A DNA stretch of 64,000 nucleotides from Paraburkholderia sp. Tr-20389 (GTDB lineage: Bacteria > Pseudomonadota > Gammaproteobacteria > Burkholderiales > Burkholderiaceae): contig NZ_JAAGPD010000046.1 in assembly GCF_017104565.1 (NCBI RefSeq), forward strand, positions 1-64,000, read 5' to 3'. Below, one piece after another: positions 5,050 to 60,660 of this stretch. The first letter of the stretch is position 1; the number at the start of each line of letters is the position of its first letter. A program made the position numbers and the translations under genes. The notes beneath the pieces were generated by a model, which saw only the letters and a program-made list of their open reading frames with translations, made no database searches and was not told where the DNA came from.

Positions 5050-5228
5050 CCAAACACAATATTAGTCAACGAATTTTTGCGGGTGCTACTGGGTGTTGCT
5101 GCATTGCAAAAGGTCTCGCGGGCTTTGTGTCTGAAGGGTTTGGGCGCCTGAATCGTGCGATGCATCAAGCGTCCGTACGGGATAGTCCTGGGGTCGCGTT
5201 ACGTCGTTTGTGTCGTGTGACGGCGGCC

Positions 5229-5948
5229 TTAGTCCAGAAAATCGCAATGTGTTTCGACATACAGCGCGAGGTCGAGCGAATGCTGACGCACGAGCGTTTC
5301 GACCTGCTCGGTGTCGCGCGCCTCGAGCGCCTCGATGATGCGCATGTGGTCCTCGATCGAACGCGATGCGCGGTCGCTCTGCGCGATCGTCATGCGGCGT
5401 ATCGCGCGCACGTGCATGAAGATGTTCTTGATCGTATCGAGGATGATCTGCGAGCCGGACAGTTCGACGAGCGCCTGATGAAACGCGATGTTCACCTCGC
5501 TGTACTCCTCGATGTGATCGGTCGGCGTCGCGGAATGGAAGTCGTCGAACATGGCCCGCAGCTTCGCGATGTCGGCGCTCGACGCCCGTTGGGTCGCGAG
5601 GCGCGCCGCGACGCTTTCCAACGCGGCCCACATGCAGATCATCTCGACGATCTCTTTCTTGGTCTTGCGCAGGATGTAGACGCCGCGGCGCGGCACCGTG
5701 CGCAGGAAGCCCTCCTGTTCGAGCAGCGTCATCGCCTCGCGCACGGGCGTGCGGCTCACGCCGAGCGCTTCGGTCAGTTCCTTCTCATCCAGACGCACTT
5801 CTTCACGCGAGTGATAGATGTCGGTGTTGGCAATCGCCTGCTTGAGCCGCGCGTACGCCTGATCGCGCAGCGAAGCCGTCGCGTTGATCGGCGTGAGGTT
5901 CAGGCTCAACGGGACCGCGCGGACATTTTCTTGCGTGTCGGTGGACAT
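5229..5948 (-). CDS. GntR family (FCD-type) transcriptional regulator
   Basis: A 239-residue regulator. The N-terminal winged helix spans about residues 15-85 (ELTEALGVSRTPVREAMTLLEQEGF, the typical recognition helix), followed by a C-terminal all-helical FCD ligand domain. Members bind small acids and repress or activate catabolic genes. The ATG at 5948 is preferred because GAGGAG lies upstream; the longer ORF would add a 49-residue leader. It is read in the same direction as oxc-frc, about 230 bases away. It is a close paralogue of the regulator at 9173-9892, with the same length. A role in controlling oxalate genes is likely from context. Confidence 0.92.
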   Translation of the reverse strand: MSTDTQENVRAVPLSLNLTPINATASLRDQAYARLKQAIANTDIYHSREEVRLDEKELTEALGVSRTPVREAMTLLEQEGFLRTVPRRGVYILRKTKKEIVEMICMWAALESVAARLATQRASSADIAKLRAMFDDFHSATPTDHIEEYSEVNIAFHQALVELSGSQIILDTIKNIFMHVRAIRRMTIAQSDRASRSIEDHMRIIEALEARDTEQVETLVRQHSLDLALYVETHCDFLD

Positions 5949-6601: not shown

Positions 6602-6604
6602 GGT

Positions 6605-7397
6605 TTTTCGCCTGCGGCGCGGCGTTGCCGGTTTGGTTTTTTGCTTTTGGTTTTGGTTTTGCTCTCTTGGCTTTGGCTTTTCGCTGGCATCCGCGTTTTG
6701 CCTTCGCAGTTCTAGCGTCGCCCCTGTGCGGGGCGGCACCTACTTTTCTTTGCAGCGGCAAAGAAAAGTAGGCAAAAGAAAGCCGCTCACACCGCTAATC
6801 CTTCTTCCTGCCTGCGGGCCCCCTACGGGTCCCGCACTTCAAACGGCACCACATCATTTTGCGCCCGTTGCCAGCGCGTTGAAGCGACGCATCCCCCACT
6901 CCAATCACCCGCAGGATAGCCAGCGGCAGCGAATGATCCGCGCCGCCCAGGTGGCAAACTGTGTGTAGGTTATCGCACCGTATGCGTTCGCGCTTCTACG
7001 ACACCGATCCCGCTTTTCAGTCCGGAGTGGTGCATTTCCGTCGTGACGACCTACACACAGTTTGCCACCTAGGCGGCGGTGGAGGCCTGATAACGCAGTC
7101 CGTGACGCGGGAGTGCGAAGCGGGGGATGCGTGCAGTTAGCACGCTGGCAACGCACATGAATTAGCGCGATGCCGCGCACAGGACGGGGACGTTGAGAGC
7201 CCCTGGGCGAACGTCAAGGATTGGCGGGGTTAGCGGCTTTCTTTTGCCTACTTTTCTTTGCCGCTGCAAAGAAAAGTAGGTGCCGCCCCGCACAGGGGCG
7301 ACGCTAGAACGACGAAGGCAAAGCGCGGATGCCAGCGAAAAGCAAAAGCAAAAAGCAAAAACAAAAACCCAAACCGGCACCGCCGCGTCGCAGACAA
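6605..7397. repeat. Mirror-symmetric intergenic element, copy 2
   Basis: The outer ends TTCGCCTGCGGCGCGGCG (left) and the matching inverted CGCCGCGTCGCAGACAA (right) bound a nearly palindromic unit. Arm hairpins of 34 bases lie at 6739-6772 and 7247-7280, each beside a CCCCTGTGCGGGG module. Inverted repeats of 30 bases at 6941-6970 and 7049-7078 flank a 78-base asymmetric core. The left arm is type A (inner CCACTCCAATCACCCG) and the right inner arm is type B (GTGCAGTTAGCACGCTGGC). It fills the whole gap between the preceding gene and the MFS gene stop codon. It encodes no transposase. Confidence 0.85.
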
Positions 7398-7400
7398 CAA

Positions 7401-8717: not shown

Positions 8718-9172
8718 GAGCATCGTCTCCGCTTTCTATATTGTGTCGATGCTGGCCGCGCCATTCGTGACAGCGCCGCTGCATCCGCCTTACTGGTTTT
8801 CTTCTACCCGGCGTTGGGGACTTTCGACAGACCTGCGTAGTTAACCATTCAAACAGGTTGTCAGTCTTTACATTTTTATTCCAGCAGCCTGCGGATTTTC
8901 CCCAATGCGATGCACATGAATGCGCATTCGCACGCGTTAACCCTTATGTCAGACCACTACCGGGCGAATCCATCGTAAGGTGCCGCGGCGGATTGCGAAT
9001 AATTAAAGAAAGTTATCGACACTATTCGCGATCGTTTATGGATGCGATGGCGCGGGGCGCGCAGAGGAGCATGCTGCTTGGCAATGAGGGAAGACGCGAA
9101 CATCCTGGAAGGATGTCCGCGATAGATCAACAGCGGATCAACGGCAGGCGTGACTTGCCCGCAGGATTACGC
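8718..9172. other. Gene-free stretch between MFS transporter and second gntR
   Basis: No credible ORF is seen; the long plus-strand frame over it is a shadow of the gntR. It holds the promoter region of the MFS gene (with TATATTGTG near 8737, weakly like the operator motif) and, near 9100-9120, a small stem ACATCC...GGATGT that could be the 3' end of the gntR transcript. Confidence 0.5.
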
Positions 9173-9892
9173 TCAGTCGAGGAAGTCGCAATTCGCTTCG
9201 ATGAATGCGGCAAGATCGAGCGAGTGCTGGCGCGTCAGACGCTCGGCGAGTTCGGTGTCTCGCTTTTCCAGTGCTTCGATGATGCGCAGGTGATCGACGA
9301 TCGAGCGCGACGCGCGGTCGCTCTGCGAAATCGTCATGCGCCGGATCGCGCGCACATGGATGAAGATGTTCTTGATCGTGTCGAGAATGATCTGCGACTT
9401 CGACAGTTCCACGATCGCCTGATGGAACGCGATGTTTGCATCCGAGTACTCGGCGATATGCTCGGCCGGCGTCGAATCGCGGAACTGGTCGAACATGTGG
9501 CGCAGCCTCGCGATCTCCTCGTCGGTGGCATGCAATGTCGCGAGACGCGCGGCCATGCTTTCCAGCGCGGCCCACATCTGGATCATCTCGACGATCTCGC
9601 GCTTGCTCTTGCGCACAATGTAGATGCCGCGACGCGGTATCGTGCGCACGAACCCTTCCTGCTCGAGCAGCGTCATCGCCTCGCGCACGGGCGTGCGGCT
9701 CACACCCAGCGATTCACTCAGCGCGCGGTCGTCGAGACGAATCTCTTCGCGCGACGCGTAGATATCGGCATCGGCGATCGCCTGACGCAGCATCGCGTAT
9801 GCGCGGTCGCGCAGGCTGGCACTGGTGCCGATGGGTTGCAATGACAGGGTAAACGGCGTGGCCGCTGGCTGGCTGTCCAGTTCTGACGACAT
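9173..9892 (-). CDS. GntR family (FCD-type) transcriptional regulator, second paralogue
   Basis: A 239-residue protein, the same length as the regulator at 5229-5948 and alike along its whole length. The winged-helix domain (SESLGVSRTPVREAMTLLEQEGF) is followed by an FCD effector domain. The ATG at 9892 is preferred, with AGAGG upstream; the longer ORF adds a 12-residue leader. It lies upstream of, and in the same direction as, the MFS gene. Two near-duplicate regulators flanking one transporter suggest duplication of a regulator/enzyme unit, in line with the two frc copies. Its effector is probably an oxalate-pathway acid, by context only. Confidence 0.9.
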   Translation of the reverse strand: MSSELDSQPAATPFTLSLQPIGTSASLRDRAYAMLRQAIADADIYASREEIRLDDRALSESLGVSRTPVREAMTLLEQEGFVRTIPRRGIYIVRKSKREIVEMIQMWAALESMAARLATLHATDEEIARLRHMFDQFRDSTPAEHIAEYSDANIAFHQAIVELSKSQIILDTIKNIFIHVRAIRRMTISQSDRASRSIVDHLRIIEALEKRDTELAERLTRQHSLDLAAFIEANCDFLD

Positions 9893-16729: not shown

Positions 16730-17500
16730 TTTTTATTGTCTGCGACGCAGTCGCCATTCTGGGTTTTTTATGTTTTGATTTTCGCTGGCATCCGCGATTT
16801 CATGTCGGTGTTCAGGCGTTGCCCCTGTGCGGGGCGGCACTTACTTTCTTTGCCGCCGCAAAGAAAGTAAGCAAAGAAAGCGGGCTAACACCGCCAGTGC
16901 TACTCGTTGCCTGCGGGCCCCCAGCCGTTCTTATGCTTCACGCGGCAACACGCTATTTTTCCGCCCGTCGCCAGCGTGCTAACTGCACGCCTCACCCACT
17001 TCACACTCCCTCGTCACGAACTGCGTTACCAGACGTCCACCGCCGCCCAGGTGGCAAACTGTGTGTAGGTCGTCACGACGGAAATGCACCACTCCGGACT
17101 GAAGAGCGGGATCGGTGTCGTAGAAGCGCGAACGCATGCGGTGCGATAACCTACACACAGTTTGCCACCTAGGCGGCGCAAACCATTCGCTGCCGCTGGC
17201 TGCGTTACGGGTGAGTGGAGTGGGTGATGAGCCTGTTCAACGCGCTGGCAACGGGCGGAAAAGGGTGCGTTGCCGTTTGAAGTGCGGGACCCGTTGGGGA
17301 CCCGCAGGCAATCACTAGCACTGGCGGTGTTAGCGGCTTTCTTTTGCCTACTTTTCTTTGCCGCTGCAAAGAAAAGTAGGTGCCGCCCCGCACAGGGGCA
17401 ACGCCAGCAAACCAAAGACATAGCGCGGATGCAAGTGAAAGAAAACCAGAAAACCAGAAAACCTGGAACCGCGACTACGTCGCAGACAAAAAAGAGCCCC
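16730..17500. repeat. Mirror-symmetric intergenic element, copy 3
   Basis: It occupies the entire gap between the channel stop codon and the ABC ATPase start codon. The outer ends TCTGCGACGCAGTCGCC (left) and GCGACTACGTCGCAGA (right) are inverted. The left arm is type B (CTTACTTTCTTTGCCGCCGC hairpin, GCGGGCT) and the right arm type A (CCTACTTTTCTTTGC hairpin). The 30-base inverted repeats are at 17041-17070 and 17149-17178 around a 78-base core. Read as A-core-B, its core orientation equals copy 2 and is opposite to copy 4. The short ORFs inside have no coding support. Confidence 0.85.
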
Positions 17501-40197: not shown

Positions 40198-43100
40198 ATG
40201 AATAAAAAAAGCCATCGGCTGGTATTCAGCAAACTGAGAGGCATGCTGATCGCGGTCGAGGAAAGCGCGACGGCCTCCGGAAAATCGGCCGGCCAAACAC
40301 GCGCAACGGGACGCGCATCGAGGAAGACAACCCACTCACCACTGCAACGCCTGGCGGCACTGCCGTTTGCCGTCGCGCCGCTTCTGGCGTTCGCGCAGAT
40401 CGTTCCGGGCGGCACGCACGCGCCAGGTGTCATCAGCACGCAGAACGGCATTCCGCAGGTGAACATCAACAAGCCCGCGACCAGCGCCGGCGTGTCGATG
40501 AATACCTACAACCAGTTCGACGTGTCGCCGAAAGGCGCGATCCTGAATAACTCGCCGACCCTGGTCAACACGCAGCAGGCGGGTTATATCAACGGCAACC
40601 CGAACTTCGGGCCGAACGATGCCGCGAAGATCATCGTCAATCAGGTCAACTCCAGCAGCGCGAGCCAGATCAACGGCTATGTCGAGGTCGCCGGGCCACG
40701 CGCTGAAGTCGTCATTGCCAACGGCTCAGGCATCAGTGTCAACGGTGGCGGCTTCATCAATACGTCCCGCTCGATTTTGACCTCAGGCTCGCCGAACTTC
40801 GCGGCGGACGGGTCGCTCGCGGGTTTCAGTGTGACGGGCGGCAACGTCACGATTCAGGGCGCGGGCTTCAACGGCTCGAATATCGACCAGGTGGACCTGA
40901 TCGCGCGCGCTGTTCAGGTCAATGCGGCCATCTACGCCGGCAAGAACCTGAACGTCATCACAGGCGCAAACAGCGTCGACCACGACACGCTCAATGCAAC
41001 GCCCATCGCGGGCAGCGGCACCGCCCCTGCTGTGTCCATCGACGTGAGCAATCTGGGCGGTATGTACTCGGGAAAAATCCTTCTTGCGTCCAACGAATAC
41101 GGTGTCGGTGTTTCTAACCGGGGTGTTATCGCGACACAGTCGGGTGACCTGACGCTCACCTCAGAGGGCAAGTTGGTGCTGGCCGGACAGACCAACGCGA
41201 GCGGCAACATCAACGCTTCTGCACACGACGGCATCGACAACAGCGGCACCACCTACGCACAGCAGAACGTCAGCGCGACGACATCGGGCGCACTCTCCAA
41301 CAGCGGTACGCTCGCCGCGCAGCAGAACACCAGCATCAGCGCGGGCAGCGTCGCATCGACGGGCACGCTCGGCGCGGGTGTGAACGGTGACGGCACGGTT
41401 ACGAACACAGGCGACCTGTCGGTGAGTTCGGGCGGCGCGATCTCCGCGACCGGCCGCAATGCGGCGGGCGGTAACGTCACACTGAGCGGCGCGTCGATCG
41501 ACCTCTCGAACAGCAGCACGTCGGCCAAAGGCGCGCTTGCGCTTGCGGCAAACAGCGGCGATATGAACCTGTCGGGCGCGACCTCGACGGCCGGGACGAC
41601 GCTCAACGCAAACGCAAGCGGCACGCTGACCAGCGACAACGGCACGCTGTCATCGGGCGGTGCACAGACCATCGCGGCGGGCGCGCTATCGAATCGCAAA
41701 GGACAGATCGTATCGGGCGGCGCGCTAACGGCGAATGTCGCGGGCGCCATCGAGAACCAGGGCGGCACGATGCAGGCGGCGGGCGGACAGACACTGCACG
41801 CCGGTTCGCTCGATAACACCAGCGGACATATCGCGTCGTTGAACGCTGACGGCCTGAGCGTCACCGTGACGGGCCTGCTGAACAATGGCGCGCTCGGCAC
41901 CATCGGCGGCAACGGCAACGCGACCCTACAGGCCGGACAGATCGCGAACGCCGGATCCATTGCAACGGTTCAGAACCTGATTGCGGCAGCGGTGCAGACG
42001 TTGTTCAACAGCGGCACGGTCGCGGCCAACGGCAATGTGACCCTGTCGGCGGGCACAACGCTGACGAGCAGCAACACGATTGCTGCGGGCCGCGCGCTGA
42101 CACTGACGGCCGCGACTTTCGATAACAGTCACGGCTCGGCCAGCGCCGACCAGATCGCGCTGCACGCGACGAACCTCGTCAACCGCTCGGGGAGCATCGC
42201 GCAAACCGGTACGGGCGCAACGACCGTCGATGTGACGGGAACGCTCGACAACACCAGCGGCAGCTTCCAGACCAACGCGACCGACCTGACACTCTCGCCT
42301 GCCGGTATCGTCAACGACAACGGCACCATTGCCAGCGCGGGCACAGGTACGCTCTCGGTCCGCACGGGCACGCTCTCGAACAACGGCGGCACGATGGCGA
42401 CGAACGGAGCGCTCGACGTGAACGCAGGCGCGGTGTCGAACCGTGGCGGCACGTTTGCCGCGCAGACAGGCGCCACGTTCACGGTCGCATCGCTCGACAA
42501 CAGCGCGGGTGGCTACGTCGGCGCGCAGTCGGTATCGGTCGCGGATTCTGGCGCGCTGAACAACGCGAGCGGCACGATTCAGGCGAATGACACGCTCAAG
42601 GTCGCCGCCGACTCGGTCGCCAATGATGCGGGTTCGATTGCGAACGGCGGCACGGGCGCGACGACCGTCACAGCGAACGGTGCGGTCACGAACACGAACA
42701 GCGGCATGATTGGCGGCAACGGCGATGTGTCGGTCGTGGGCGGCAGTGTCGACAATTCGGACGGCGTCGTCACGGCGGGCGGCGCGATATCCGTGCAGTC
42801 CGGCAGCACGCTCGGCAATCGCGCGGGCCTGATCCAGGGCACGGGCGCGGGGGTGACGGCGAGCGGCGCAATCGACAACACGGCCGGTCAGATTGAATCG
42901 GACGGCACGGGTTCTGCGCTTTCAGTCTCGGGTGCATCGCTCGACAACACGAACGGACGCATCGCCAACACGGGCAGTGGCGCGACCGCGATCAGCGCCA
43001 CCACGATCACCAATACGAACACAGGCGGCGTTGCGGACGCGGGCACCATCGGCGGCAATGGCGATGTCACGGTCAACGCACAGACGCTGTCGAACACAAA

Positions 43101-46100
43101 CGGCGCGCAGATGCTGTCCGGTCACGACCTGACGCTGACCATTGCACAACTCGCGGACAACACGAACGCGACGCTCTCGGGCGCGAACAACCTGACACTG
43201 AACGGCCCGAACGCGGCTCTCATCAATGCCGGCGGCTCGATTCACGGTAACGGCGCGGTCACGTTACAGACCGCATCACTCGATAACACCGCCGGACGCG
43301 TCGGCAACGACACGGGCAGCGGCGGCAGCGTCGCGATCAGCACGGGCACGCTGACGAACCAGAACGGCGCAATCGGCAGCGATCAGAACCTGAGCGTTAC
43401 CACGAACGCACTGACGGGTGACGGCCGCATCGTTGCGGGCAATGACGGCACGGTCAACGTCAACGGCGACTACACGCTCGATACCGCAAACCAGATCCAG
43501 GCGAATCACGACCTGACGTTCACGACGACAGGCAACTTCACAGTCCAGGGCACGCTCGGCGCGGTCAATGCGCTGACGGTGAACGCCGCGAACGTCGATA
43601 ACCAGGCGGGCGCGGATATCAATTCGGCCAACACGACCGTCAACGCGGCGAACGCGATCACGAACGAAGGACGCATCGAGGGCAATAACGTGACGACGCA
43701 CAGCGCGTCGCTCGCCAATACCGCGACCATCGTCGGCAATACGGTAACGCTGAACGCCGGGTCGATTGCGAACGCGGGCGCGGCAGCGGCGATTGCCGCG
43801 GCTTCGGCGGTGAACCTGTACGGGTCGGATATCTCGAACACGGGCGGCGCGAACATTTTCAGTCTCGGCGACATCAACATCGCAGCGGACGGCACGCGCG
43901 ACGGCAACGGCCTGCTCGCGAACCGCGCGAATTCGGTGACGAACGACCAGTCAAGCATCGACGCACAGGGCAACATCGAAGTCGCCACGCAGACGCTGAC
44001 CAACACGCGCCCCGCTCCCACGGTCGACACGGTGACGACCGATGTCTCGACGCAACATCTGACCAAGCGCGACAAATACATGGCCTGCACGCCGACCAAC
44101 GGCGACAAGGGTTACTGCACCCAGGCCATGTGGGACAACGGGTACAAGAACCCGCTGAACGCCACTTTCGGCAATGCCGATGTCGTGTCGACGGCAAGCG
44201 GCCCGAACGCCGTTGACCGTGTGCTCGTCGTGAACGTCAACGGCCAGCCGACGACGATCTACTACAACTCCATCACGAACAATGCCGACGGCACGATTAC
44301 CGTCAACTACTGGGACGCTTACGATCCGCACGTCAACTACGATCCGGGCACGGAATATCCAGGCGACAACCAGGCGCATCACGGCTACCAGCGCATCGAG
44401 GCAGCGCGCGACACGACGACCACGACGCAGCAGGATCAGGTAACGGCGCAGGCACAGCAGGCGCAACTCATGGCGGGCGGCAACCTGACGCTTGCCAACG
44501 TCGGCACCGTGAACAACAGCTACAGCGCAATCGGTGCTGGCGGCTCGATCCAGATCGGCAGCAGCCAGGCAACGGGCGATGTGACAAGCGGTAGCTACGG
44601 CGGAACGGCCGTCAACAACACCGGACAAACGCTGTATCAGTACCAGCAGCAGGACATCGTGTCGACCTACGCGTGGAACGAGAACATCACGCGCGACGTG
44701 GGCCAGGTGGTGCAACCGACAGTCATGCTGACGCCGGTTGCCATCGGCGGCCTGGGCGGCACGATCATCGCGAACAACGCGGTGCAGATCAACGCGACCG
44801 ACATCAACAACACCAACGTCGCAGCGGCGAACTCGGCCACGGGCGCAACGGGCGGAACGCTCGGCGCGAACGGCGCCGTGGGCGGCGTCACGGGCGGCGG
44901 CTCGCAGACCGTCAATCTCGCGACCGGGCAGACGCAGACCATCAACGCGCCGCAGTCGGTCGCGGGCGCGACGGGCGCGCTGAACATTGCATTGCCGAAA
45001 AACGGGCTGTACACGTTCAACACCGCGCCTGGCGCGTCCTACCTGATTGCCACTGATCCACGACTGACCAGCTACGCCAGCTTCATTTCGAGCGACTACA
45101 TGCTCAAGCAGTTGGGCTACAACCCGTCGACGGTCGAAAAGCGTCTCGGCGACGGTCTGTATGAAGAACAGATGATCCGCAACCAGATTACGCAACTGAC
45201 GGGCCGGGTCTATCTGGAAGGCTACACGACCAATGAGGACGAATACCGTACGCTGATGAACAACGGCGTGAACGTCGCGAAGGAATTCAGCCTTGAGCCG
45301 GGCATGGCGCTGACAGCCGCCCAGATGGATGCACTCACGAGCGATATCGTGTGGCTCGTCAACCAGACGGTCACGCTGCCGGACGGCAGCACGCAGACGG
45401 TACTTGCGCCCGTTGTCTATCTCGCTCACACGCACGCGAACGACCTGCAACCTACGGGCGCGCTCATCGCGGCCGACGATGTCGAGATTCACGCGACGGG
45501 CAGCGCGAACAACTCCGGCGTCATCAAGGGCGGTTCGCAGACCGTCATCAGCGCGACGAATATCGTCAATCGCGGCGGCTCGATTGGCAGCAGCACGGAC
45601 AACGGTACGACCGTGGTCTCGGCGACGAACGATGTCGTCAACGCATCGGGCCGCATCACCGGCAACCGTGTTGCAGTGATCGCCGGCCACGACATCGTCA
45701 ATACGACGCTGGTCGATGCTGTCGGCGTCAGTTCAGCGGTCGGCAACAGCAAGGTCAGTCAGACGCTGGTCGGCGCACAGGGCACGATTGCATCGACGGG
45801 CGACATGGTAATCGGGGCCGGTCGCGACCTGAACGTGCATGGCGCAAGCATCGCGGCGGGCGGCAATGCGCAGATTGCAGCGGGCCACGACATCAACGTC
45901 GATACGGTCGAGTCGCACACGTCGCAGTCGGTGATGACGAACGCCAATAGCCACATGCACGCCGATACGACGCTCAACCAGACGAGCGGCATCAGCGCGG
46001 GCGGCAGTCTCGCGATGCAGAGCGGCAACGACATGACGTTCAGGGGCGCGGCAGTTTCCGCTGGTGGCGACCTGGCGGTTGCTTCGGGCGGCAACCTGAC

Positions 46101-49100
46101 GGCCACGACGGTGACGAACACCGCAAGCCGCGATGACGTACATCTTGACGACAAGACGCGCAGCACGCAAAGCCACAGCTATGACGAGCAGGCAGTCGGC
46201 ACCTCGTTCAAGGCGGGCGGAAATGCGACGCTTGCCGCCGTTGGCACCGATGCGAGCAAAGGCAACGTCGCGCTCACGGGTTCGTCCCTGGCGGCCGACA
46301 AGGGTGCGGCCAGCATCGCCGCAACCGGCAATGTCACGATCAACGAAGCGCACGAGGAACACGACAGCCATACCGAGACGGAATCGAAGCGCGGCAGCTT
46401 CGTTCATGCCTCGACGACCGACACGATGCAGGATTCGCGCGCCAACGTCAGCGTCGGCAGCACGGTATCGGGCGACAGCATCAACGTCAGCGCAGGCAAG
46501 GATCTGACGGTCAAAGGCTCGACTGTCGCCGGTACGAACGACGTGAGTCTCGCGGCAGGCGGCAACGTGAACATCAGCACGTCGCAGGACACACAAACGT
46601 CGTCGAGTTACTACCAGAAGCATGAGTCGGGCTTTGGCACGGGCGGCGGCATCGGCATCTCGGTCGGCAGCAGGACGCAGACCGACACGGCGCATGACGC
46701 CACAGTAACGAACAACAGCAGCACGGTCGGCTCGCTGAATGGCAACCTGAACGTCGTCGCCGGAAAGGATCTGCACGTCACGGGCAGTAACCTCGTTGCC
46801 GCCGGAAACGTCACGGGCACGGGCCAGAACGTCACCATCGACGCGGCAACGGATACCGCGCACCACGACGAGACGCACGAGGTCAAACAGAGCGGCTTTA
46901 CGCTCGCGATCAAGGCTCCTGTTATCGACGCTGTTTCGAACACCATCGACCAGGCGCGCGGCGCGAGCCATAGCCAGGACGACCGTGCAGCCGCATTGCA
47001 CGGCATGGCAGCGGCAAGCGGCGCGGTTGACGCTTACGGCGCGGCAGGCAAGGCAATGGGCCAGCTCGCCAGTGGCAAAACGCCGGACGCGAAGATCGAA
47101 TTGAGCTACGGCAGCAGCCACAGCAAGAGCACATTCACGGAAGACAGCACGACCAACCGGGGTTCGAGCGTCACACCGGGCGGTACGGCTGCGTTCGTCG
47201 CCACGGGCAACGGCACGCCGGGGAGCGGCAACGTCACGATTGCAGGTTCGAACGTGAACGCGAGCGACGTGATACTGGCGGCAAAAAATCAGGTCAATCT
47301 CGTCAACACGACAGATACCGATTCAACGCGCAGCACGAACCAGTCGGGTAGCGCCAGCGTCGGCGTGTCGTATGGCACGCAGGGCTGGGGTGTCGATGCG
47401 TCGGCGTCGAAAGCGAAAGGCAACGCGAACAGCGACGCCGCGATGCAGAACAACACGCATGTGACGGCGGCGAATACCGCGACGATCATCTCGGGCGGCG
47501 ATACGAACATCGTCGGCGCGAACGTGAACGGCCGTCAGGTGAATGCCGATGTCGGCGGCAACCTGAACATCGCGAGCGTGCAGGACACGACGGCGAGCAG
47601 TGCTCATCAGGAAAGCATGGGTGGTGGGTTCAGTGTGAGTCAGGGCGGCGCGAGCGGCAGCTTTAGCCGGACGAACGCCAACGCCAACGGCAGCTATGCG
47701 GGGGTGAATGAACAGGCCGGCATTCATTCGGGTGACGGTGGGTTCAACATCAGCGTCAAGGGCAATACGGACCTGAAAGGCGCGACGATCGCAAGCGACG
47801 CGGACGCATCGAAGAACAACCTGTCGACGGGTACGCTCACCTTCTCCGACATTCAGAACCAGTCGAGTTACAGCGCGAAATCGGGCGGGTTCAGCGCGGG
47901 CGCCACCACGGGCGATGGCGGGATGAACTACACCACGCACGGCAATACGTCCGGTGTGAACGCGGGCGGTGGCGCGCCGATGCTGAGCCAGAACGACAGC
48001 GGCAGCAGCAGCGCGCTCTCGCGAAGTGGCATCAGTGCGGGCACGATCGACGTCACCGACAACGCGCACCAGACGCAGGATGTGGCGAGCCTGAACCGTG
48101 ATACGTCAAACACGAACGGCACGGTGGCAAAACTGCCGGATGTGAACAACCTGCTGGACAGGCAGGCGGACATGATGGCGGCGGCGAGTGCGGCGGGTGA
48201 AGCGGTATCGCGGCGTATCGGGGACTATGCGGACAAACAGGCCAGGTCGACAGGTGATCCTGAGTGGGCCGAAGGTGGTGCGAAGCGCGCAGAAATGCAG
48301 GCTGCAGGCGCGGCGCTCGTGACGGGGCTTGCGGGCGGCAATGCGCTCGGCGGTGCAGCTGGAGCTGGTATCGCTTCGATTGCAGCAGGCAAGCTGAACG
48401 AACTGAGCGGCTCGGTCGCTGATTCGACCGGCAATTCGGACATGGCGAAGGCACTCGGGAACATCGTTTCGGACGCGATTGCGACGGGCATGGGCGGCGC
48501 TGTTGGCGGCAATGCGGGAGCGTTCTCTGGATATGACGTGGACCGTTATAACAGGCAGTTGCATGATGACGAAAAGCAAGTCATCAAGAATTTGGCGGAA
48601 GGCGATGCGGCCAAAGAACATCGTCTAGAAGCGGCTGCTTGCGCTCTCGTTCAGTGCGCAGCCGAGTATGCACCAGGCACCGCCGATTACACAAAATATT
48701 CGGCGCTTCAGACAGAAGGCGCGGCCTACACCGTCGAACAGAGTCAACTGAAGAACTACAGCGGAACGTCCTTCTCGGCGTCTAACTATGGTGGCATGGT
48801 GCAACAAACCACCGGAAACAGTCTGTTCCACTACAGCGCGAGTGATGCGCAGGGAGACAACAGGGCAATGCAGGCCGCGATGGAGGCTCAACGCCCAGGG
48901 TCTGTTGATTATTTGACAATACAAGGCGGCGGTCTAGGGGTCGGCGGTGCGATCACAGTCAATCTTCACAACGGGAATGTCTATTTATCGGGCTCTGGTT
49001 CTGTGCCTGTCGCGCCGGGTGCGTCAATTGTCGGCGGGATGGTGGCCTCCAATGCAGGATTACCTATGGGAAATCGAGGAGGCAACACCGACGATTTCTT

Positions 49101-49287
49101 GGCAGGCGCATCCGCTGGCGGTGGTGTATGCGCGTTCGGCGTCTGCGGCGGAGTGAATCACGGAATCGGCGGTGATACTGCTTTTGAAGTAGGCGTAGGC
49201 ACCGGTGGGATAACCAAGGCACCCAATTTTAGCGGATATGGCGGCACAGGCTACGGCGGTCGCATCGGCAAAATGCCCGGGTATTGA
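40198..49287 (+). CDS. cdiA: CdiA/FhaB-type two-partner-secretion exoprotein
   Basis: A 3029-residue filamentous haemagglutinin-like protein. It begins with an ESPR-type extended signal (MNKKSHRLVFSKLRGMLIAV), then a signal sequence and the TPS domain (about 70-310, VNINKPATSAGVSMNTYNQFDV, NGGGFINTSRSILTSG). A long fibre of FHA repeats follows, with a non-repetitive Cys-containing segment (about 1280-1420) that may hold the receptor-binding region, and SDYMLKQLGYNPSTVEKRLGDG (about 1630). The pre-toxin junction DVDRYNRQLHDDEK is at about 2778. The last 240 residues, lower in GC, form a Gly-rich candidate effector with VCAFGVCGG. TTGACA at 40131-40136 may be the -35 box. No ribosome-binding site is seen. 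Confidence 0.93.
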   Translation: MNKKSHRLVFSKLRGMLIAVEESATASGKSAGQTRATGRASRKTTHSPLQRLAALPFAVAPLLAFAQIVPGGTHAPGVISTQNGIPQVNINKPATSAGVSMNTYNQFDVSPKGAILNNSPTLVNTQQAGYINGNPNFGPNDAAKIIVNQVNSSSASQINGYVEVAGPRAEVVIANGSGISVNGGGFINTSRSILTSGSPNFAADGSLAGFSVTGGNVTIQGAGFNGSNIDQVDLIARAVQVNAAIYAGKNLNVITGANSVDHDTLNATPIAGSGTAPAVSIDVSNLGGMYSGKILLASNEYGVGVSNRGVIATQSGDLTLTSEGKLVLAGQTNASGNINASAHDGIDNSGTTYAQQNVSATTSGALSNSGTLAAQQNTSISAGSVASTGTLGAGVNGDGTVTNTGDLSVSSGGAISATGRNAAGGNVTLSGASIDLSNSSTSAKGALALAANSGDMNLSGATSTAGTTLNANASGTLTSDNGTLSSGGAQTIAAGALSNRKGQIVSGGALTANVAGAIENQGGTMQAAGGQTLHAGSLDNTSGHIASLNADGLSVTVTGLLNNGALGTIGGNGNATLQAGQIANAGSIATVQNLIAAAVQTLFNSGTVAANGNVTLSAGTTLTSSNTIAAGRALTLTAATFDNSHGSASADQIALHATNLVNRSGSIAQTGTGATTVDVTGTLDNTSGSFQTNATDLTLSPAGIVNDNGTIASAGTGTLSVRTGTLSNNGGTMATNGALDVNAGAVSNRGGTFAAQTGATFTVASLDNSAGGYVGAQSVSVADSGALNNASGTIQANDTLKVAADSVANDAGSIANGGTGATTVTANGAVTNTNSGMIGGNGDVSVVGGSVDNSDGVVTAGGAISVQSGSTLGNRAGLIQGTGAGVTASGAIDNTAGQIESDGTGSALSVSGASLDNTNGRIANTGSGATAISATTITNTNTGGVADAGTIGGNGDVTVNAQTLSNTNGAQMLSGHDLTLTIAQLADNTNATLSGANNLTLNGPNAALINAGGSIHGNGAVTLQTASLDNTAGRVGNDTGSGGSVAISTGTLTNQNGAIGSDQNLSVTTNALTGDGRIVAGNDGTVNVNGDYTLDTANQIQANHDLTFTTTGNFTVQGTLGAVNALTVNAANVDNQAGADINSANTTVNAANAITNEGRIEGNNVTTHSASLANTATIVGNTVTLNAGSIANAGAAAAIAAASAVNLYGSDISNTGGANIFSLGDINIAADGTRDGNGLLANRANSVTNDQSSIDAQGNIEVATQTLTNTRPAPTVDTVTTDVSTQHLTKRDKYMACTPTNGDKGYCTQAMWDNGYKNPLNATFGNADVVSTASGPNAVDRVLVVNVNGQPTTIYYNSITNNADGTITVNYWDAYDPHVNYDPGTEYPGDNQAHHGYQRIEAARDTTTTTQQDQVTAQAQQAQLMAGGNLTLANVGTVNNSYSAIGAGGSIQIGSSQATGDVTSGSYGGTAVNNTGQTLYQYQQQDIVSTYAWNENITRDVGQVVQPTVMLTPVAIGGLGGTIIANNAVQINATDINNTNVAAANSATGATGGTLGANGAVGGVTGGGSQTVNLATGQTQTINAPQSVAGATGALNIALPKNGLYTFNTAPGASYLIATDPRLTSYASFISSDYMLKQLGYNPSTVEKRLGDGLYEEQMIRNQITQLTGRVYLEGYTTNEDEYRTLMNNGVNVAKEFSLEPGMALTAAQMDALTSDIVWLVNQTVTLPDGSTQTVLAPVVYLAHTHANDLQPTGALIAADDVEIHATGSANNSGVIKGGSQTVISATNIVNRGGSIGSSTDNGTTVVSATNDVVNASGRITGNRVAVIAGHDIVNTTLVDAVGVSSAVGNSKVSQTLVGAQGTIASTGDMVIGAGRDLNVHGASIAAGGNAQIAAGHDINVDTVESHTSQSVMTNANSHMHADTTLNQTSGISAGGSLAMQSGNDMTFRGAAVSAGGDLAVASGGNLTATTVTNTASRDDVHLDDKTRSTQSHSYDEQAVGTSFKAGGNATLAAVGTDASKGNVALTGSSLAADKGAASIAATGNVTINEAHEEHDSHTETESKRGSFVHASTTDTMQDSRANVSVGSTVSGDSINVSAGKDLTVKGSTVAGTNDVSLAAGGNVNISTSQDTQTSSSYYQKHESGFGTGGGIGISVGSRTQTDTAHDATVTNNSSTVGSLNGNLNVVAGKDLHVTGSNLVAAGNVTGTGQNVTIDAATDTAHHDETHEVKQSGFTLAIKAPVIDAVSNTIDQARGASHSQDDRAAALHGMAAASGAVDAYGAAGKAMGQLASGKTPDAKIELSYGSSHSKSTFTEDSTTNRGSSVTPGGTAAFVATGNGTPGSGNVTIAGSNVNASDVILAAKNQVNLVNTTDTDSTRSTNQSGSASVGVSYGTQGWGVDASASKAKGNANSDAAMQNNTHVTAANTATIISGGDTNIVGANVNGRQVNADVGGNLNIASVQDTTASSAHQESMGGGFSVSQGGASGSFSRTNANANGSYAGVNEQAGIHSGDGGFNISVKGNTDLKGATIASDADASKNNLSTGTLTFSDIQNQSSYSAKSGGFSAGATTGDGGMNYTTHGNTSGVNAGGGAPMLSQNDSGSSSALSRSGISAGTIDVTDNAHQTQDVASLNRDTSNTNGTVAKLPDVNNLLDRQADMMAAASAAGEAVSRRIGDYADKQARSTGDPEWAEGGAKRAEMQAAGAALVTGLAGGNALGGAAGAGIASIAAGKLNELSGSVADSTGNSDMAKALGNIVSDAIATGMGGAVGGNAGAFSGYDVDRYNRQLHDDEKQVIKNLAEGDAAKEHRLEAAACALVQCAAEYAPGTADYTKYSALQTEGAAYTVEQSQLKNYSGTSFSASNYGGMVQQTTGNSLFHYSASDAQGDNRAMQAAMEAQRPGSVDYLTIQGGGLGVGGAITVNLHNGNVYLSGSGSVPVAPGASIVGGMVASNAGLPMGNRGGNTDDFLAGASAGGGVCAFGVCGGVNHGIGGDTAFEVGVGTGGITKAPNFSGYGGTGYGGRIGKMPGY

Positions 49288-51648: not shown

Positions 51649-53673
51649 ATGTCTGACCTCGCATCCCGAATTAAAACAACAACCGACTCAATGAAGTACC
51701 GCCCCGACATCGACGGCCTGCGCGCCGTCGCCGTGTCGGGCGTTGTCATCTTTCATGCATTTCCTTCCGTGCTGCGCGGCGGGTTCGTCGGCGTCGACAT
51801 CTTTTTCGTGATCTCAGGCTATCTCATCACGAATATCTTGCTAGACGAACTCGACCATGGACACTTCAGCATCAGAAGCTTCTACGCGAGGCGGATCAGG
51901 CGAATCTTCCCGGCGCTAGTGTTCGTTCTGATGTTCACATACGGACTGGGCTGGATCTCGCTTTTCAAGGACGAGTACAAGCAGCTTGGCAAGCACATCG
52001 CCGCTAGCGCCGCTTTCGTCGCTAACCTTGTATTCTGGAACGAAGCGGGCTACTTCGACAGTGCCGCAGAGACAAAGCCGCTGCTACATCTCTGGTCGCT
52101 AGGAGTCGAGGAGCAGTTCTACATTATCTGGCCGCTGCTGTTGGCGTTCGTATATCGCCGCCGGTCCAATACCGCACCGCTCATACTTGCCGGACTCGTG
52201 CTCTCGTTGGCCATCAACGTCGTTCTGATCCAACATCACCCCGCAGCGGCATTCTTCTCGCCGCTGAGCCGGTTCTGGGAATTGCTTCTGGGCGCAATGC
52301 TTGCCCATTCAAACCGAACCCAGCTCGCTTTCAATGACGCTTCCTTGCACGGGATGTCCATCGCGGGATCTGTGCTCTGCATGGTCGCGATGTCATGCCT
52401 GAACCGAGAGATGTCATTTCCGGGATGGTGGGCGTTGGTGCCGACGTGTGGCGCATGCCTACTGATAGGAAGTAGCCGAAGGGCATTCGTCAACGAGAAG
52501 GTTCTGAGCCAGCCGATCATGATATGGATCGGAAAGATCAGCTACCCGCTCTATCTTTGGCACTGGCCGCTACTGTCGTTTGCCACAATCCTGGCGGGCC
52601 GGACACCTGCGCCGTATGTTCGTATCTCGCTTATCGCGGCCAGTATAGTGCTCGCGTGGCTGACGTACATCCTGCTAGAGCGGCGCATCCGCTTCGGCAC
52701 GAACCACTGGATCAAGGTCGCGCCTCCTTGTGTCCTACTAGTTGCGATGGGCTATATCGGGGGTATGACGTACGTTCGCGATGGTCTGGGCTTCCGCAAG
52801 GGCTACAGCCTCGTTGCGGACGTCAATTCCGCCACCCTTGGCGCGGGCCACGAGTTCGTAAGACCTGAATGCGGTGTGCCCGCGAATCAACAACGCCTGT
52901 TCCAGTTCTGTTCTCAAGACCGAAGGGAAATACCTCGAGCCGTCGTATGGGGTGATAGTAAGGCAGATGCGCTCTATTGGGGGATGGTACGGGAGTCAGC
53001 ACGCGATCGCCGATGGAGTCTGGTAGCTCGTACTGGTTGCGCCCCGATGAGCGGCGTTGTTCGCATCTCATCGTATGCGAATGACAATCCTGACGAATGC
53101 GCGAACGCGAACCGCGTTGCTATGCAAGCAATCACGTCCAATCACGACATCAAGCTTGTGGTGCTAGCTACAGCGGCTCGCGTGCTCGTCGGTCCTGAAT
53201 ATGCGCTAGCGGGCACTCATCAATCGATAGGCTCTGCCGCCATAGATGGGCTCAACAACTCCATCGAGACATTGCGAAAAGCGGGCAAGGAGGTTGTGCT
53301 AGTGATGGACAACCCGACGCTTCCTGATCCGCGTGGATGCATGGACCGCAAGCTGATGGGCTACCCGTTCATGCAGACCCTTCTCAGCGTGAAGCAGTCA
53401 AGTTCGTTCGCAAGCAAATGCGCGATCACGTATGGCGAACATCTGGCTGCAACCACAGGCTATCGGGCGATCGTCGCGAAGCTCCACGTGATGCATCCCG
53501 ACATGCTGATCTATGATCCGGCGCCCGTACTGTGCGACATGCAGAAAGGCATGTGTTCAGTGACACAAAACGGAAAATTTCTCTACAGCTATGGCGATCA
53601 CATTTCAGATACAGCCAATACGCTGATCGCCGACCAGCTCCTGCCCCAAATCAAAGGAAGCACCCAGAAGTGA
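51649..53673 (+). CDS. Membrane acyltransferase (OafA/acyltransferase-3 type) with C-terminal SGNH domain
   Basis: A 674-residue protein. The N-terminal acyltransferase-3 region (about 15-360, some ten membrane helices) has the catalytic R-x10-H motif in DGLRAVAVSGVVIFHAF. The periplasmic SGNH domain (about 415-670) has the GDS block VVWGDSKADALYW (about 430) and the later DHISDTAN (about 649). Such proteins O-acetylate cell-surface glycans. It lies inside the cdi locus, just before cdiB, and its stop overlaps the cdiB start (GTGA). GC is lower than in the core genes. The start could also be the ATG at 51691. Confidence 0.9.
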   Translation: MSDLASRIKTTTDSMKYRPDIDGLRAVAVSGVVIFHAFPSVLRGGFVGVDIFFVISGYLITNILLDELDHGHFSIRSFYARRIRRIFPALVFVLMFTYGLGWISLFKDEYKQLGKHIAASAAFVANLVFWNEAGYFDSAAETKPLLHLWSLGVEEQFYIIWPLLLAFVYRRRSNTAPLILAGLVLSLAINVVLIQHHPAAAFFSPLSRFWELLLGAMLAHSNRTQLAFNDASLHGMSIAGSVLCMVAMSCLNREMSFPGWWALVPTCGACLLIGSSRRAFVNEKVLSQPIMIWIGKISYPLYLWHWPLLSFATILAGRTPAPYVRISLIAASIVLAWLTYILLERRIRFGTNHWIKVAPPCVLLVAMGYIGGMTYVRDGLGFRKGYSLVADVNSATLGAGHEFVRPECGVPANQQRLFQFCSQDRREIPRAVVWGDSKADALYWGMVRESARDRRWSLVARTGCAPMSGVVRISSYANDNPDECANANRVAMQAITSNHDIKLVVLATAARVLVGPEYALAGTHQSIGSAAIDGLNNSIETLRKAGKEVVLVMDNPTLPDPRGCMDRKLMGYPFMQTLLSVKQSSSFASKCAITYGEHLAATTGYRAIVAKLHVMHPDMLIYDPAPVLCDMQKGMCSVTQNGKFLYSYGDHISDTANTLIADQLLPQIKGSTQK

Positions 53674-55529
53674 AGCGTGATATCAGAAAGAAAGTTGTCA
53701 ATGTTCAAGCAGCGAAAAACGGACCATTTGGAAGAAAAGGCCGGCTGAGTCTCATTGCAGGGGCGATTGTCGGACTGTTGAATCATGGTGCAATCGGTTC
53801 GCTGTACGCGGCAGATGGGCCGACGCCGACAGACGCCGCAGCAGCCGCGCGCGCGAACGCCGAACAGAACCAGCAGCTACAGCAGCAGCGCGACGCACAG
53901 CAGCGCGCGGCGACTGTCGCTACGCCCGTTGTACGCTCGACTGTGCCAATGGCGGGCGAATGGCCAGTGTTACCCGTCGAAGCACCGTGTTTCCGCATCG
54001 ACACATTCGCGCTCGATGTGCCCGCGACACTGCCCGATATCGCACGCAAACACGGCGCGTCGAATCTGCCGCTTGATCCGTTCTGGTTCGCGCGCGAATG
54101 GCTCGACCACTACAAGGGTCAGTGCATCGGCAAGGTAGGACTCGATACGCTCACCAAGGGCTTGCAGCAAACGATACTGTCGCGCGGCTATGTGACCACG
54201 CGCGTGCTGCTACCTGAACAGGATCTGTCGACCGGCACACTCAAGGTCGCGCTCGTGCCAGGCGTCGTGCGCCATATCCGCTTCGCCGATCCTGACACAC
54301 GCGGCACATGGAAGTCCGCGTTTCCTGCGCGCAACGGCGACCTGCTCGACGTGCGCGACCTTGAGCAAGGGCTGGAGCAAATGAAGCGTGTCGCGTCCCA
54401 GGACGTGGACATGAAGATCGAGCCGACAGAAACACCCGGCGAGAGCGATGTCGTGCTGAACGTGAAGCGCGCGAAGCCCTGGAGCTTCGTCGCATCGGTC
54501 GATAACTCAGGCACCAAGGCAACGGGCAAGTGGCAAGGCAACGTGAGCCTTGGTCTCGACAACCCGCTCGGCCTGAACGACGTGCTTGCAGCAGGCGCGA
54601 ACCAGGACCTGTCATTCGGCAACAAGACACTTGGCTCGCACGGCTTTAACGGCTCGTACTCCGTGCCATGGGGCTACTGGACCGCGACGCTGTCAGGCAA
54701 CACGAACACGTACTATCAGAACATCGCGGCGGTCAACGAGACGTTCGTATCGAGCGGCAATTCGCAGACAGCCGCGTTCAGGCTCGCACGTGTGCTGTCG
54801 CGCAGCCAGACCGACGTACTCGGTGCGTACATCCAGTTGTCGAAGCGCTTCGGTGAGAGCTTCATCGAAGGAACGACCATCCCGATCCAGGACCGCAACA
54901 ACACGTTCATCGAAGCAGGCGCGACTGACCGCCACTATTTCGGCGCGGCACAGTTCGATGGCACGCTCGCATATCGACAGGGCGTTCGCGGCCTCGGCGA
55001 GACGGGCGATCCGAACCCCGGCCTGTACGACCAGACCAACAAGCCCGCAACCTATCCGACGTATCTGTTCAGGATGGCCGTGCTCGACGCGAACCTGTCC
55101 ATTCCGTTCGCTGTCGCGTCGCAAGCCTTCCGTTACGTGACGACCGTTCACGGTCAGTTCACGAACGACACGCTGTTCTATCTCGACGACCTGACGATCG
55201 GCAGCCGCTACACGGTGCGTGGCTTCGACGGCGAAACGATGCTCGCGGCAGAGAAAGGCTTCTACTGGCGCAACGAACTGCAATGGCCGATCTTCCAGAC
55301 CGGGCAGACGCTCTATGCAGGGATCGACTACGGCCGCGTGTTCGGCCCTAACACGGCGATTCTGGCGGGCACCCAACTCGCAGGCGCGGTGATCGGCATT
55401 CGCGGCGGCATACCGGCGAAGTACGCGGGAATCTCGTATGACCTGTTCGTGGGCACGCCCATCTACAAGCCAGCCGGATTCCCCACTGCACGCGTGACGG
55501 TCGGCGTGCAGGCGACGGCACAGTTTTGA
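53670..55529 (+). CDS. cdiB: CdiB/FhaC-type outer-membrane transporter (TpsB)
   Basis: A 619-residue TpsB protein. An extended signal (KNGPFGRKGRLSLIAGAIVGLLNHGAIGSLYA) is followed by a Gln-rich linker (about 60-85), a first POTRA (about 105-170, PCFRIDTFALDV), a second POTRA (about 180-270), and the FhaC barrel (about 280-619) with GSRYTVRGFDGE, the conserved VRGF tetrad, and a C-terminal strand ending in phenylalanine. It exports the CdiA exoprotein. GTG at 53670 is chosen because AAAGGAAG lies upstream and it overlaps the acyltransferase stop; the track frame extends farther without support. Confidence 0.93.
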   Translation: MKRDIRKKVVNVQAAKNGPFGRKGRLSLIAGAIVGLLNHGAIGSLYAADGPTPTDAAAAARANAEQNQQLQQQRDAQQRAATVATPVVRSTVPMAGEWPVLPVEAPCFRIDTFALDVPATLPDIARKHGASNLPLDPFWFAREWLDHYKGQCIGKVGLDTLTKGLQQTILSRGYVTTRVLLPEQDLSTGTLKVALVPGVVRHIRFADPDTRGTWKSAFPARNGDLLDVRDLEQGLEQMKRVASQDVDMKIEPTETPGESDVVLNVKRAKPWSFVASVDNSGTKATGKWQGNVSLGLDNPLGLNDVLAAGANQDLSFGNKTLGSHGFNGSYSVPWGYWTATLSGNTNTYYQNIAAVNETFVSSGNSQTAAFRLARVLSRSQTDVLGAYIQLSKRFGESFIEGTTIPIQDRNNTFIEAGATDRHYFGAAQFDGTLAYRQGVRGLGETGDPNPGLYDQTNKPATYPTYLFRMAVLDANLSIPFAVASQAFRYVTTVHGQFTNDTLFYLDDLTIGSRYTVRGFDGETMLAAEKGFYWRNELQWPIFQTGQTLYAGIDYGRVFGPNTAILAGTQLAGAVIGIRGGIPAKYAGISYDLFVGTPIYKPAGFPTARVTVGVQATAQF

Positions 55530-55768: not shown

Positions 55769-55860
55769 CGACACTGCACAGGGGCAACGCTTGAAGTGCG
55801 AAGACAAAACGCGGATGCCAGCGAAACCGCAAACCCAGCACGCGCAGCAAAAATCCGATC
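55769..55860. repeat. Single-arm relic of the mirror-symmetric element
   Basis: TGCACAGGGGCAACGC followed by AACGCGGATGCCAGCGAAACC matches the right-arm outer part of the four full elements. The hairpin, core and opposite arm are missing. It suggests an old copy that lost one side, next to the cdi locus. Confidence 0.65.
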
Positions 55861-59763: not shown

Positions 59764-60660
59764 TTTTTTCTTTGCCTGCGGCGGCTGTTTTGTCACTGGC
59801 ATCCGCGGTTTGCTTTTCGCTTTCGCTGGCATCCGCGGTTTGCTTTTCGCTTTCGCTGGCATCCGCGGTTTGCTTTTCGCTTTCGCTGGCATCCGCGATT
59901 TGCTTTTCGCTTTCGCTGGCATCCGCGGTTTCATGTCGGTGTTCAGGCGTCGCCCCTGTGCGGGGCGGCACCTACTTTTCTTTGCAGCGGCAAAGAAAAG
60001 TAGGCAAAAGAAAGCCGCTAACACCGCCAATGCTAATGATTGCCTGCGGGCCCCCAACGGGTCCCGCACTTCACACGACGACACTTTGTTTTGCGCGCGT
60101 TGCCAGCGCGCTGAGCGAGCGCATCACCCACTCCAGTCACCCGTAGCGCAACCAGCGGCATCGAATCGTCTGCGCCGCCCAGGTGGCAAACTGTGTGTAG
60201 GCCATCTCGACATAGAGCCTCCACTCCGGACTGAAAAGCGGGATCGGTGTCGTAGGAACGCGAACGCATACGGTGCGACAACCTACACACAGTTTGCCAC
60301 CTGGGCGGCGGCAGACGTTGGGTAACGCAATTCGTGACGCGGGAGTTTGAAGTGGGGGATGCGTGCAGTTAGCACGCTGGCAACGCGCATGAAATAGCGC
60401 GGTGCCGCGTGAAGCGTAAGAACGGTTGGGGGCCCGCAGGCAAGAACAAGGATTGGCGGTGTGAGCCCGCTTTCTTTGCTTACTTTCTTTGCGGCGGCAA
60501 AGAAAGTGAGTGCCGCCCCGCACAGGGGCAACGCATGAACGACCAACACCAAAACGCGGATGCCAGCAAAAGCAAAAAACCAAAAACCAGAAACCAAAAC
60601 GGCGAAGCCCGCGCCGAGAAGGCAACAATGGCGACTGCGTCGCAGACATATCCAAAGGAC
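59764..60660. repeat. Mirror-symmetric intergenic element, copy 4, between gabT and gabD
   Basis: It fills the gap from the gabT stop codon nearly to the gabD ribosome-binding site. The left arm is type A, extended by a 30-bp tandem repeat; the right arm is type B. The 30-base inverted repeats (about 60173-60202 and 60281-60310) flank a 78-base core in the orientation opposite to copies 2 and 3 when the arms are aligned. Arm hairpins could terminate or attenuate the gabT transcript, which would uncouple gabD. No transposase is present. Confidence 0.88.
59796..59930 (+). repeat. 30-bp tandem repeat within element copy 4
   Basis: Units beginning CTGGCATCCGCGGTTTGC recur at 59796, 59826, 59856, 59886 and 59916, exactly 30 bases apart, with only one or two base changes (CGATT in the fourth). 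It is an expansion of the outer arm of the element, not seen in the other copies. Frames reading through it give an artificial ten-residue peptide repeat. Confidence 0.92.

Follow-up and report, generated by a model that had tools for sequence, protein, structure and literature searches.

The 64,000-nt stretch of Paraburkholderia sp. Tr-20389 analysed here (the window; contig C41 of a 9.0-Mb genome) contains several near-palindromic elements lying between genes, and the question that it raises is what such elements are: non-autonomous mobile units, transcription insulators, or a source of structured RNA, as was suggested in the original prediction. Four copies and one relic, with a nested structure, had been described there. 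All of them were found where it had placed them, and built as it had said. The features are given below, copy 2 being divided into its parts; the strand is given where a part has one.

370-1075: copy 1; hairpins 2 at 435-466 and 936-967, right inner motif at 741-763, left inner repeat degenerate
6603-7400: copy 2; occupies the whole spacer of two convergent genes, stop codon to stop codon
6603-6714: copy 2, left T-rich tail; lies between the stop codon and the outer module and contains the CGCTGGCATCCGCG motif
6717-6737 (+): copy 2, left hairpin 1; GTCGCCCC-TGTGC-GGGGCGGC and then a T-rich stretch, terminator-like for inward transcripts
6740-6771: copy 2, left hairpin 2; the 34-base hairpin of the original prediction, with a co-varying stem and a loop that is an IS insertion point in relatives
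6940-6969: copy 2, left inner 30-bp inverted repeat
6970-7049: copy 2, core; asymmetric, in either orientation depending on the copy
7050-7079: copy 2, right inner 30-bp inverted repeat
7248-7279: copy 2, right hairpin 2
7282-7302 (-): copy 2, right hairpin 1; resembles a terminator for transcripts running inward from the right
7305-7400: copy 2, right A-rich tail; ends at the stop codon of a minus-strand MFS gene
16730-17500: copy 3; directly follows the stop codon of a mechanosensitive-channel/cNMP-binding gene (+); its core has the opposite orientation to that of copy 2
55769-55860: relic; part of one right arm with its tail
59764-60660: copy 4; flanked by an aminotransferase class-III gene and an aldehyde dehydrogenase gene, each on the + strand; arms mosaic

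Each full copy has two GC hairpins (hairpin 1, GTYGCCCC-TGTGC-GGGGCGGC), two hairpins of 32-34 bases (hairpin 2; eight in the window) and a core of ~80 bp. Copies 2, 3 and 4 have both 30-bp inner inverted repeats intact; in copy 1 the left one is degenerate. The arms are 90% complementary across 158 bp in copy 2, and 92% across 119 bp in copy 1. The copies had been said to share an identical design. This was true of the outer arms, but not of the interiors, which vary from species to species; copies 1 and 4, moreover, are of ambiguous orientation and mosaic-like. The tail motif of copy 4 has undergone a tandem 30-bp expansion (59793-59942), and tandem tail or arm pieces with units of 30 bp and 72 bp were likewise seen at locus L016 (1252-1540). 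In contrast to a CRISPR array, the 30-bp units in the tail of copy 4 are direct tandem repeats with no distinct spacers.

None of the eight window ORFs that overlap elements matched an NCBIfam model (E 0.1), and the Rfam scan of the window, at gathering score, gave one tRNA and no match for the elements. The elements had also been described as having no transposase, which was so for the window copies; that they encode no protein was true of the Tr-20389 genome, but not of the family, since relatives have gene-bearing cores. Elsewhere in the window, a 3029-aa ORF near a ShlB/FhaC-type gene (40198-49287 and 53532-55529) suggests a two-partner secretion locus, and internal repeats lie in this region between 48271 and 51393. 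Two diverged related stretches (5228-5870 and 9172-9814; 77-79% identical, 3944 bp apart) flank copy 2.

When the genome and its relatives were searched with the repeat motifs, as had been proposed, a family of dispersed copies far above the chance control was obtained. Tr-20389 has about 120 element copies; the inner motif occurred 117 times in forward and 116 times in reverse orientation, compared with 0 for the reversed control. Three of the 60 genomes of the relatives search had this inner motif, Tr-20389 among them, and related interiors were also seen in the loci read from G077, G095, G138 and G161. Within the genus, 128 of 145 genomes had the outer module (Tr-20389 included), with 0 to 512 matches per genome; within the family it was present in 79 of 398 genomes, belonging to 3 of 25 sampled genera. 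The names attached to module-bearing stretches, among the 80 of 113 listed, were Paraburkholderia, Caballeronia and 'Burkholderia sp.'. No exact match to the module was found in IMG/VR viral contigs. A diverged outer arm (80.6% identity) lies between aceF and lpdA on the B. cepacia plasmid pBC25416 (L032, 2001-2091), about 63 bp 3' of the aceF stop, and it is the sole placement checked against curated annotation. A replication-strand bias of the elements was considered and discarded as an artefact of a one-sided match listing, the loci themselves showing both arms.

We examined how far the palindromic shape is kept. Copy 2 folded with z-scores of -26.5 on one strand and -28.5 on the other, each against 20 shuffles. 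Clustering of 163 element interiors, part of them read from loci that overlap, gave 18 clusters with mean self-complementarities of 0.55-0.78, as against 0.49-0.56 for their own shuffles. Sixteen of these were clearly self-complementary, at 0.61 or more, and two were no higher than their shuffles. Left-versus-right comparisons of ten cluster medoids ranged from 0.26 to 0.65, so some interior clusters may be related. The stem of hairpin 2 showed compensatory changes: in a sample of 385 arms, 55 of them distinct, 13.40 of 14 pairs were kept per distinct arm, compared with a mean of 11.98 and a maximum of 12.42 in 500 shuffles. For hairpin 1, covariation was not significant (7.00 compared with 6.86 shuffled, maximum 7.32). 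As for the arms, which are about 74% complementary, 30 of 32 Tr-20389 copies could be oriented cleanly (copies 1 and 4 being the exceptions), and two arms were then no more complementary if they came from the same copy than if they came from different ones (0.738 vs 0.748 in Tr-20389; 0.751 vs 0.755 in G001). Long-range co-evolution of the arms was consequently rejected; the first test for it had been confounded by orientation, and the excess was gone after orienting.

For site 2 (copy 2) and site 4 (copy 4), the neighbouring genes served as queries and gave 30 loci of relatives each, of 129 genomes with a match. Site 2 is filled in Tr-20389, G108, G020 and G115 and empty in nine near relatives, most of the remaining loci being not alignable. 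At site 4, the module was present in 20 of the 30 loci, and L132, read by eye, also has an element with a variant module. Six loci have a gap of 5-34 bp between the two genes, which in Tr-20389 are split by the element; the gaps in L105 (a tail relic) and L133 are about 100 bp, and L111 is cut off. A further 28 Tr-20389 sites were searched in G108 and G020, of which 27 and 13 regions, respectively, were read. G020 had the module at 10 of 13 sites, seven of them with full-size elements, the other three sites being unassigned. In G108, 18 of the 27 sites compared retained a copy, whether whole, partial or a stub: three whole pairs, five partial copies and ten remnants recognized by eye, those in L262 and L272 being weak ones. 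One site was clean and empty, one gave a spurious alignment and seven were unassigned. Folding of the remnants was mixed, clearly strong for L249 and L253 but not for L262, L267 and L272. Most interiors have been lost from G108, and hence the element looks dispensable there.

This comparison with strains that lack a copy had been recommended along with the original prediction, and most of the apparently empty sites turned out to be remnants. No target-site duplications were noticed when the sites were read by eye. In the genomes sampled, the element sites are old and have persisted from species to species; in G108, the copies have decayed by internal deletion. Recent movement as a non-autonomous unit was not supported: at the majority of the sites compared, relatives too have a copy, be it whole, partial or a stub, and the search for a mobilising partner gave none.

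The copies at shared sites were then compared in sequence, using 10 of 12 orthologous pairs tried (G108 and G020 against Tr-20389). The identity of elements was 0.841 for orthologous sites and 0.844 for other sites (p 0.71), compared with 0.875-0.877 within one genome. Among 30 Tr-20389 copies, the orthologue had a rank between 8th and 30th, and six of seven G020 copies grouped together. Five of the ten pairs were inverted at the shared site, L254 among them being ambiguous. The module-adjacent tails behaved similarly (0.708 for orthologous and 0.703 for other sites). Orthologues were clearly more alike only in the first ~35 nt 3' of the stop, with a weaker signal at 20-45 nt in G108 and at 50-80 nt in G020. 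G115 has its own distinct interior at both sites 2 and 4. It is clear that, in these samples, the copies are homogenised inside each genome, are frequently inverted at a fixed site, and have their interiors replaced between lineages.

Placement relative to genes was determined with a purpose-written hexamer gene caller for 52 distinct elements, none being dropped. All 52 lay between genes, in agreement with the original prediction. The flanking genes were convergent for 27, co-directional for 22 and divergent for three, compared with 29, 168 and 41 for element-free gene pairs of the same stretches, which had been picked for holding elements (Fisher p 5.7e-6 for the convergent:divergent ratio with and without an element). 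The module lay a median 104.5 bp away from the stop and 214.5 bp away from the start. In the first 60 nt 3' of the stop, the T content was 41.5% before an element (63 ends) and 20.2% elsewhere (200 ends), and this T-rich sequence often contains TTTTTTTGTCTGCGACGCAGTCGCC within a few bases of the stop.

The T stretch of hairpin 1 starts only ~6 nt after the stem. With a loose terminator pattern, the copy 2 region gave four sites, compared with 2.1 in shuffles, and hairpin 1 passed on both sides. Canonical terminators were not significantly rarer before elements (7 of 63 ends) than elsewhere (35 of 200; p 0.32), and a general loss of terminators ahead of elements was therefore dropped. At site 2, a strong terminator-like hairpin (dG -24.5 or lower) follows the left gene in nine of nine element-free near relatives, whereas the four filled loci have no hairpin below -5.3 kcal/mol in the first 115 nt. 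For the right gene, such a hairpin was present in just three of the nine. The more distant L090 has neither element nor terminator-like hairpin. The suggestion that the elements are insulators fits their position 3' of stops and the convergent bias; a role as transcript ends was not supported by the genome-wide terminator test.

Taken together, we read the elements as ancient REP/BIME-like, though far larger, 3'-end palindromes that have been homogenised by recombination and are probably bidirectional transcript ends, and give this reading a probability of about 0.48. Under it, the palindromes, which are long and nested, would be an old family of the Paraburkholderia/Caballeronia group, with every copy fixed directly 3' of a stop codon. 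Copies would overwrite each other by RecA-type gene conversion through their near-identical arms, and recombination between the arms of a copy could flip its interior. A transcript coming from either side would first run into hairpin 1, and after it into a hairpin of up to 0.8 kb. The element may in this way serve as a bidirectional transcript end or insulator, a role like that of REP/BIME at roughly ten times the length; it is the placement, the hairpins in both directions and site 2 that point to this role. Several observations weigh against the reading, namely the three divergent placements, the two interior clusters at shuffle level, the arms having no extra within-copy complementarity, the terminator test and hairpin 1 covariation being not significant, the loss of interiors in G108 and the splitting of two genes at site 4. 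We entertain only tentatively a bolder form of it, with more than 100 bidirectional gene ends at which the shape of the hairpin is kept but not its sequence; a new palindromic interior, with or without a conserved gene of its own, would overwrite fixed-site copies by recombination, and dispersed spacers and cargo would evolve in concert.

The elements could instead be a MITE- or REPIN-like non-autonomous family, moved in trans by an undiscovered or lost enzyme, with gene ends merely tolerating the insertions. We consider this rather unlikely. It would account for the high copy number, the placement in spacers, the range of 0 to 512 module matches per genome, and the occurrence of whole-unit copies with an asymmetric core and inverted ends. 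It is also favoured by a conserved gene for a 150-aa protein, which lies in the core of some copies, three of them at separate sites of the single genome G065 (L036, L037 and L038); gene-bearing copies of relatives could then be descendants of an autonomous form. The long interiors of L037 (1177-1755, minus strand) and L038 (1220-1672, minus strand) have no IS transposase, and instead share a core insert encoding this protein.

Within the genus, the 150-aa protein was matched in 69 of 143 genomes, 1-10 times in each. Among 30 loci listed, outer modules were present on both sides in ten and on one side in four, and inverted arms, all of one arm family, surrounded the gene in 12. Sixteen of the 30 have the gene without a palindrome, with a shared leader of some 200-300 bp. 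The frame is open in 19 full-length module-associated copies (two pairs identical), with a median pN/pS of 0.26 and pN lower than pS in all of the 171 pairs but the two identical ones (169 pairs); judged by these ratios, the gene is under purifying selection. The protein had no match worth naming in Pfam, NCBIfam, PHROGs or PADLOC, was absent from plasmid and phage collections, and gave weak matches only in the PDB (E 0.68 or worse). A single-sequence structure prediction (L211) was helical, with a mean pLDDT of 60.7, too weak for a structure search. The family was also seen in loci L291-L309. The gene is missing from Tr-20389, G001 and G020, and from high-copy genomes such as G001, G077, G139 and G161. 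This absence, the lack of a family match and the occurrence without a palindrome argue against movement in trans. Since the gene also exists outside palindromes, we took it as captured cargo; it may have a part in spreading the elements, but is missing where copies are most numerous. Measured against MITEs, the elements have inverted ends, and the protein of the gene-bearing version is also present without the palindrome. The gene-bearing copies lend slightly more weight to movement in trans and slightly less to homogenised transcript ends.

Other candidates for a mobilising partner were tried without success. Among the interiors of 1.3-3.3 kb, searched for an autonomous copy, L035, L036, L039, L041, L043 and L044 hold IS transposases; the seven proteins scanned, with families assigned from our reading of Pfam domains, are ordinary ones, and this too counts against movement in trans. 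A PF01797 (Y1/RAYT) match was found in 142 of 143 genomes, including all 17 that are module-free, and weak Y1 scores were similar across nearly all. Tr-20389 has one such protein (L031, 1459-2166), beside what we take to be a glutamate synthase gene. It has MPGAVQ where HxH is expected, and no module with fewer than 7 mismatches lies in the 3.3-kb locus of its gene. Mobilisation by a RAYT was not supported, the matches being independent of module count and the Tr-20389 protein having AVQ for HxH. No enzyme for the spread of the elements was identified in the genomes and loci examined, and their sites are mostly common to relatives.

A further possibility, which we regard as improbable, is that the outer palindrome is a fixed landing pad, which receives anew, lineage by lineage, a separate mobile interior inserted in random orientation. 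This would explain why one site has different interiors in different lineages, as well as the inversion at about half of the shared sites and the clustering by genome. The hairpin 2 loop does take up ISs of two kinds: among 18 long or disrupted loci, picked as such, ten from three genomes had an IS there (L034, L035 and L040-L044 in G063 and G066; L056, L057 and L062 in G001), with two kinds of ends, those of G001 being assigned by their ends alone. The loop is thus an IS insertion hotspot. On the other hand, no solo palindrome was present in 286 loci or, for one exact hairpin variant, in Tr-20389, the G108 remnants show varied deletions and no single common empty pad, and the homogenised zone extends outside hairpin 2. 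That the elements are a source of long structured RNA acting in trans is very improbable: the folding energy is extreme on both strands and shape is kept while sequence changes, but there is no Rfam match, no sigma-70-type promoter in the copy 2 region, and the copies are over 100 and nearly equal.

The original prediction knew of no named family that matches, and none was found in open-licence PMC text, which gave no description of the palindrome family. ERIC and other MITE-like repeats are imperfect palindromes of ~130 bp in spacers, and their spread is poorly understood; unlike the elements here, they are not known to have nested arms with lineage-specific interiors. REP palindromes are described as interspersed and extragenic, arranged in inverted pairs and targeted by ISs (PMC2817692, PMC3116915, PMC3733652). 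REP/BIME/REPIN systems with RAYTs resemble the elements in all of this, but REPs are 20-40 bp long. The elements are 0.6-0.9 kb nested palindromes with no module-flanked RAYT found, and are homogenised, with interiors replaced at fixed sites. The GTAG tag of REPs lies here inside the stem of one hairpin 2 variant, with GTAA or GTGA in others, and an HxH RAYT flanked by repeats, as for REPINs, was not found in Tr-20389. CGTC-tagged REPs are palindromic repeats that likewise have no dedicated transposase, but they are short; the available text on them contains 0 occurrences of Burkholderia (PMC3733652). BRE, a repeat found in spacers of Betaproteobacteria, differs in being ~90 bp long and tandem, with no more than 29 copies, and its table, in the portion available, has no Burkholderiaceae (PMC3110155). 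The orphan repeats CGCGGATGCCAGCGCAAAGGCAA of P. terrae, counted as CRISPR without cas genes in the portion of PMC5968390 available (Table 4), contain the tail motif of the element, which here is the tail of a palindrome.

If the elements are indeed old 3'-end palindromes homogenised by recombination, they would constitute a large undescribed class of bacterial interspersed palindromes, present in 128 of 145 sampled genomes of the genus. They would also be a case of dispersed non-coding loci homogenised across whole genomes, which, to our knowledge, has rarely been documented in bacteria. It may be noted, on the practical side, that element tails can be miscalled as CRISPR. The family would open to test the survival of long palindromes, the homogenisation of copies, the insulation of convergent genes, and the amplification of genes by palindromes.
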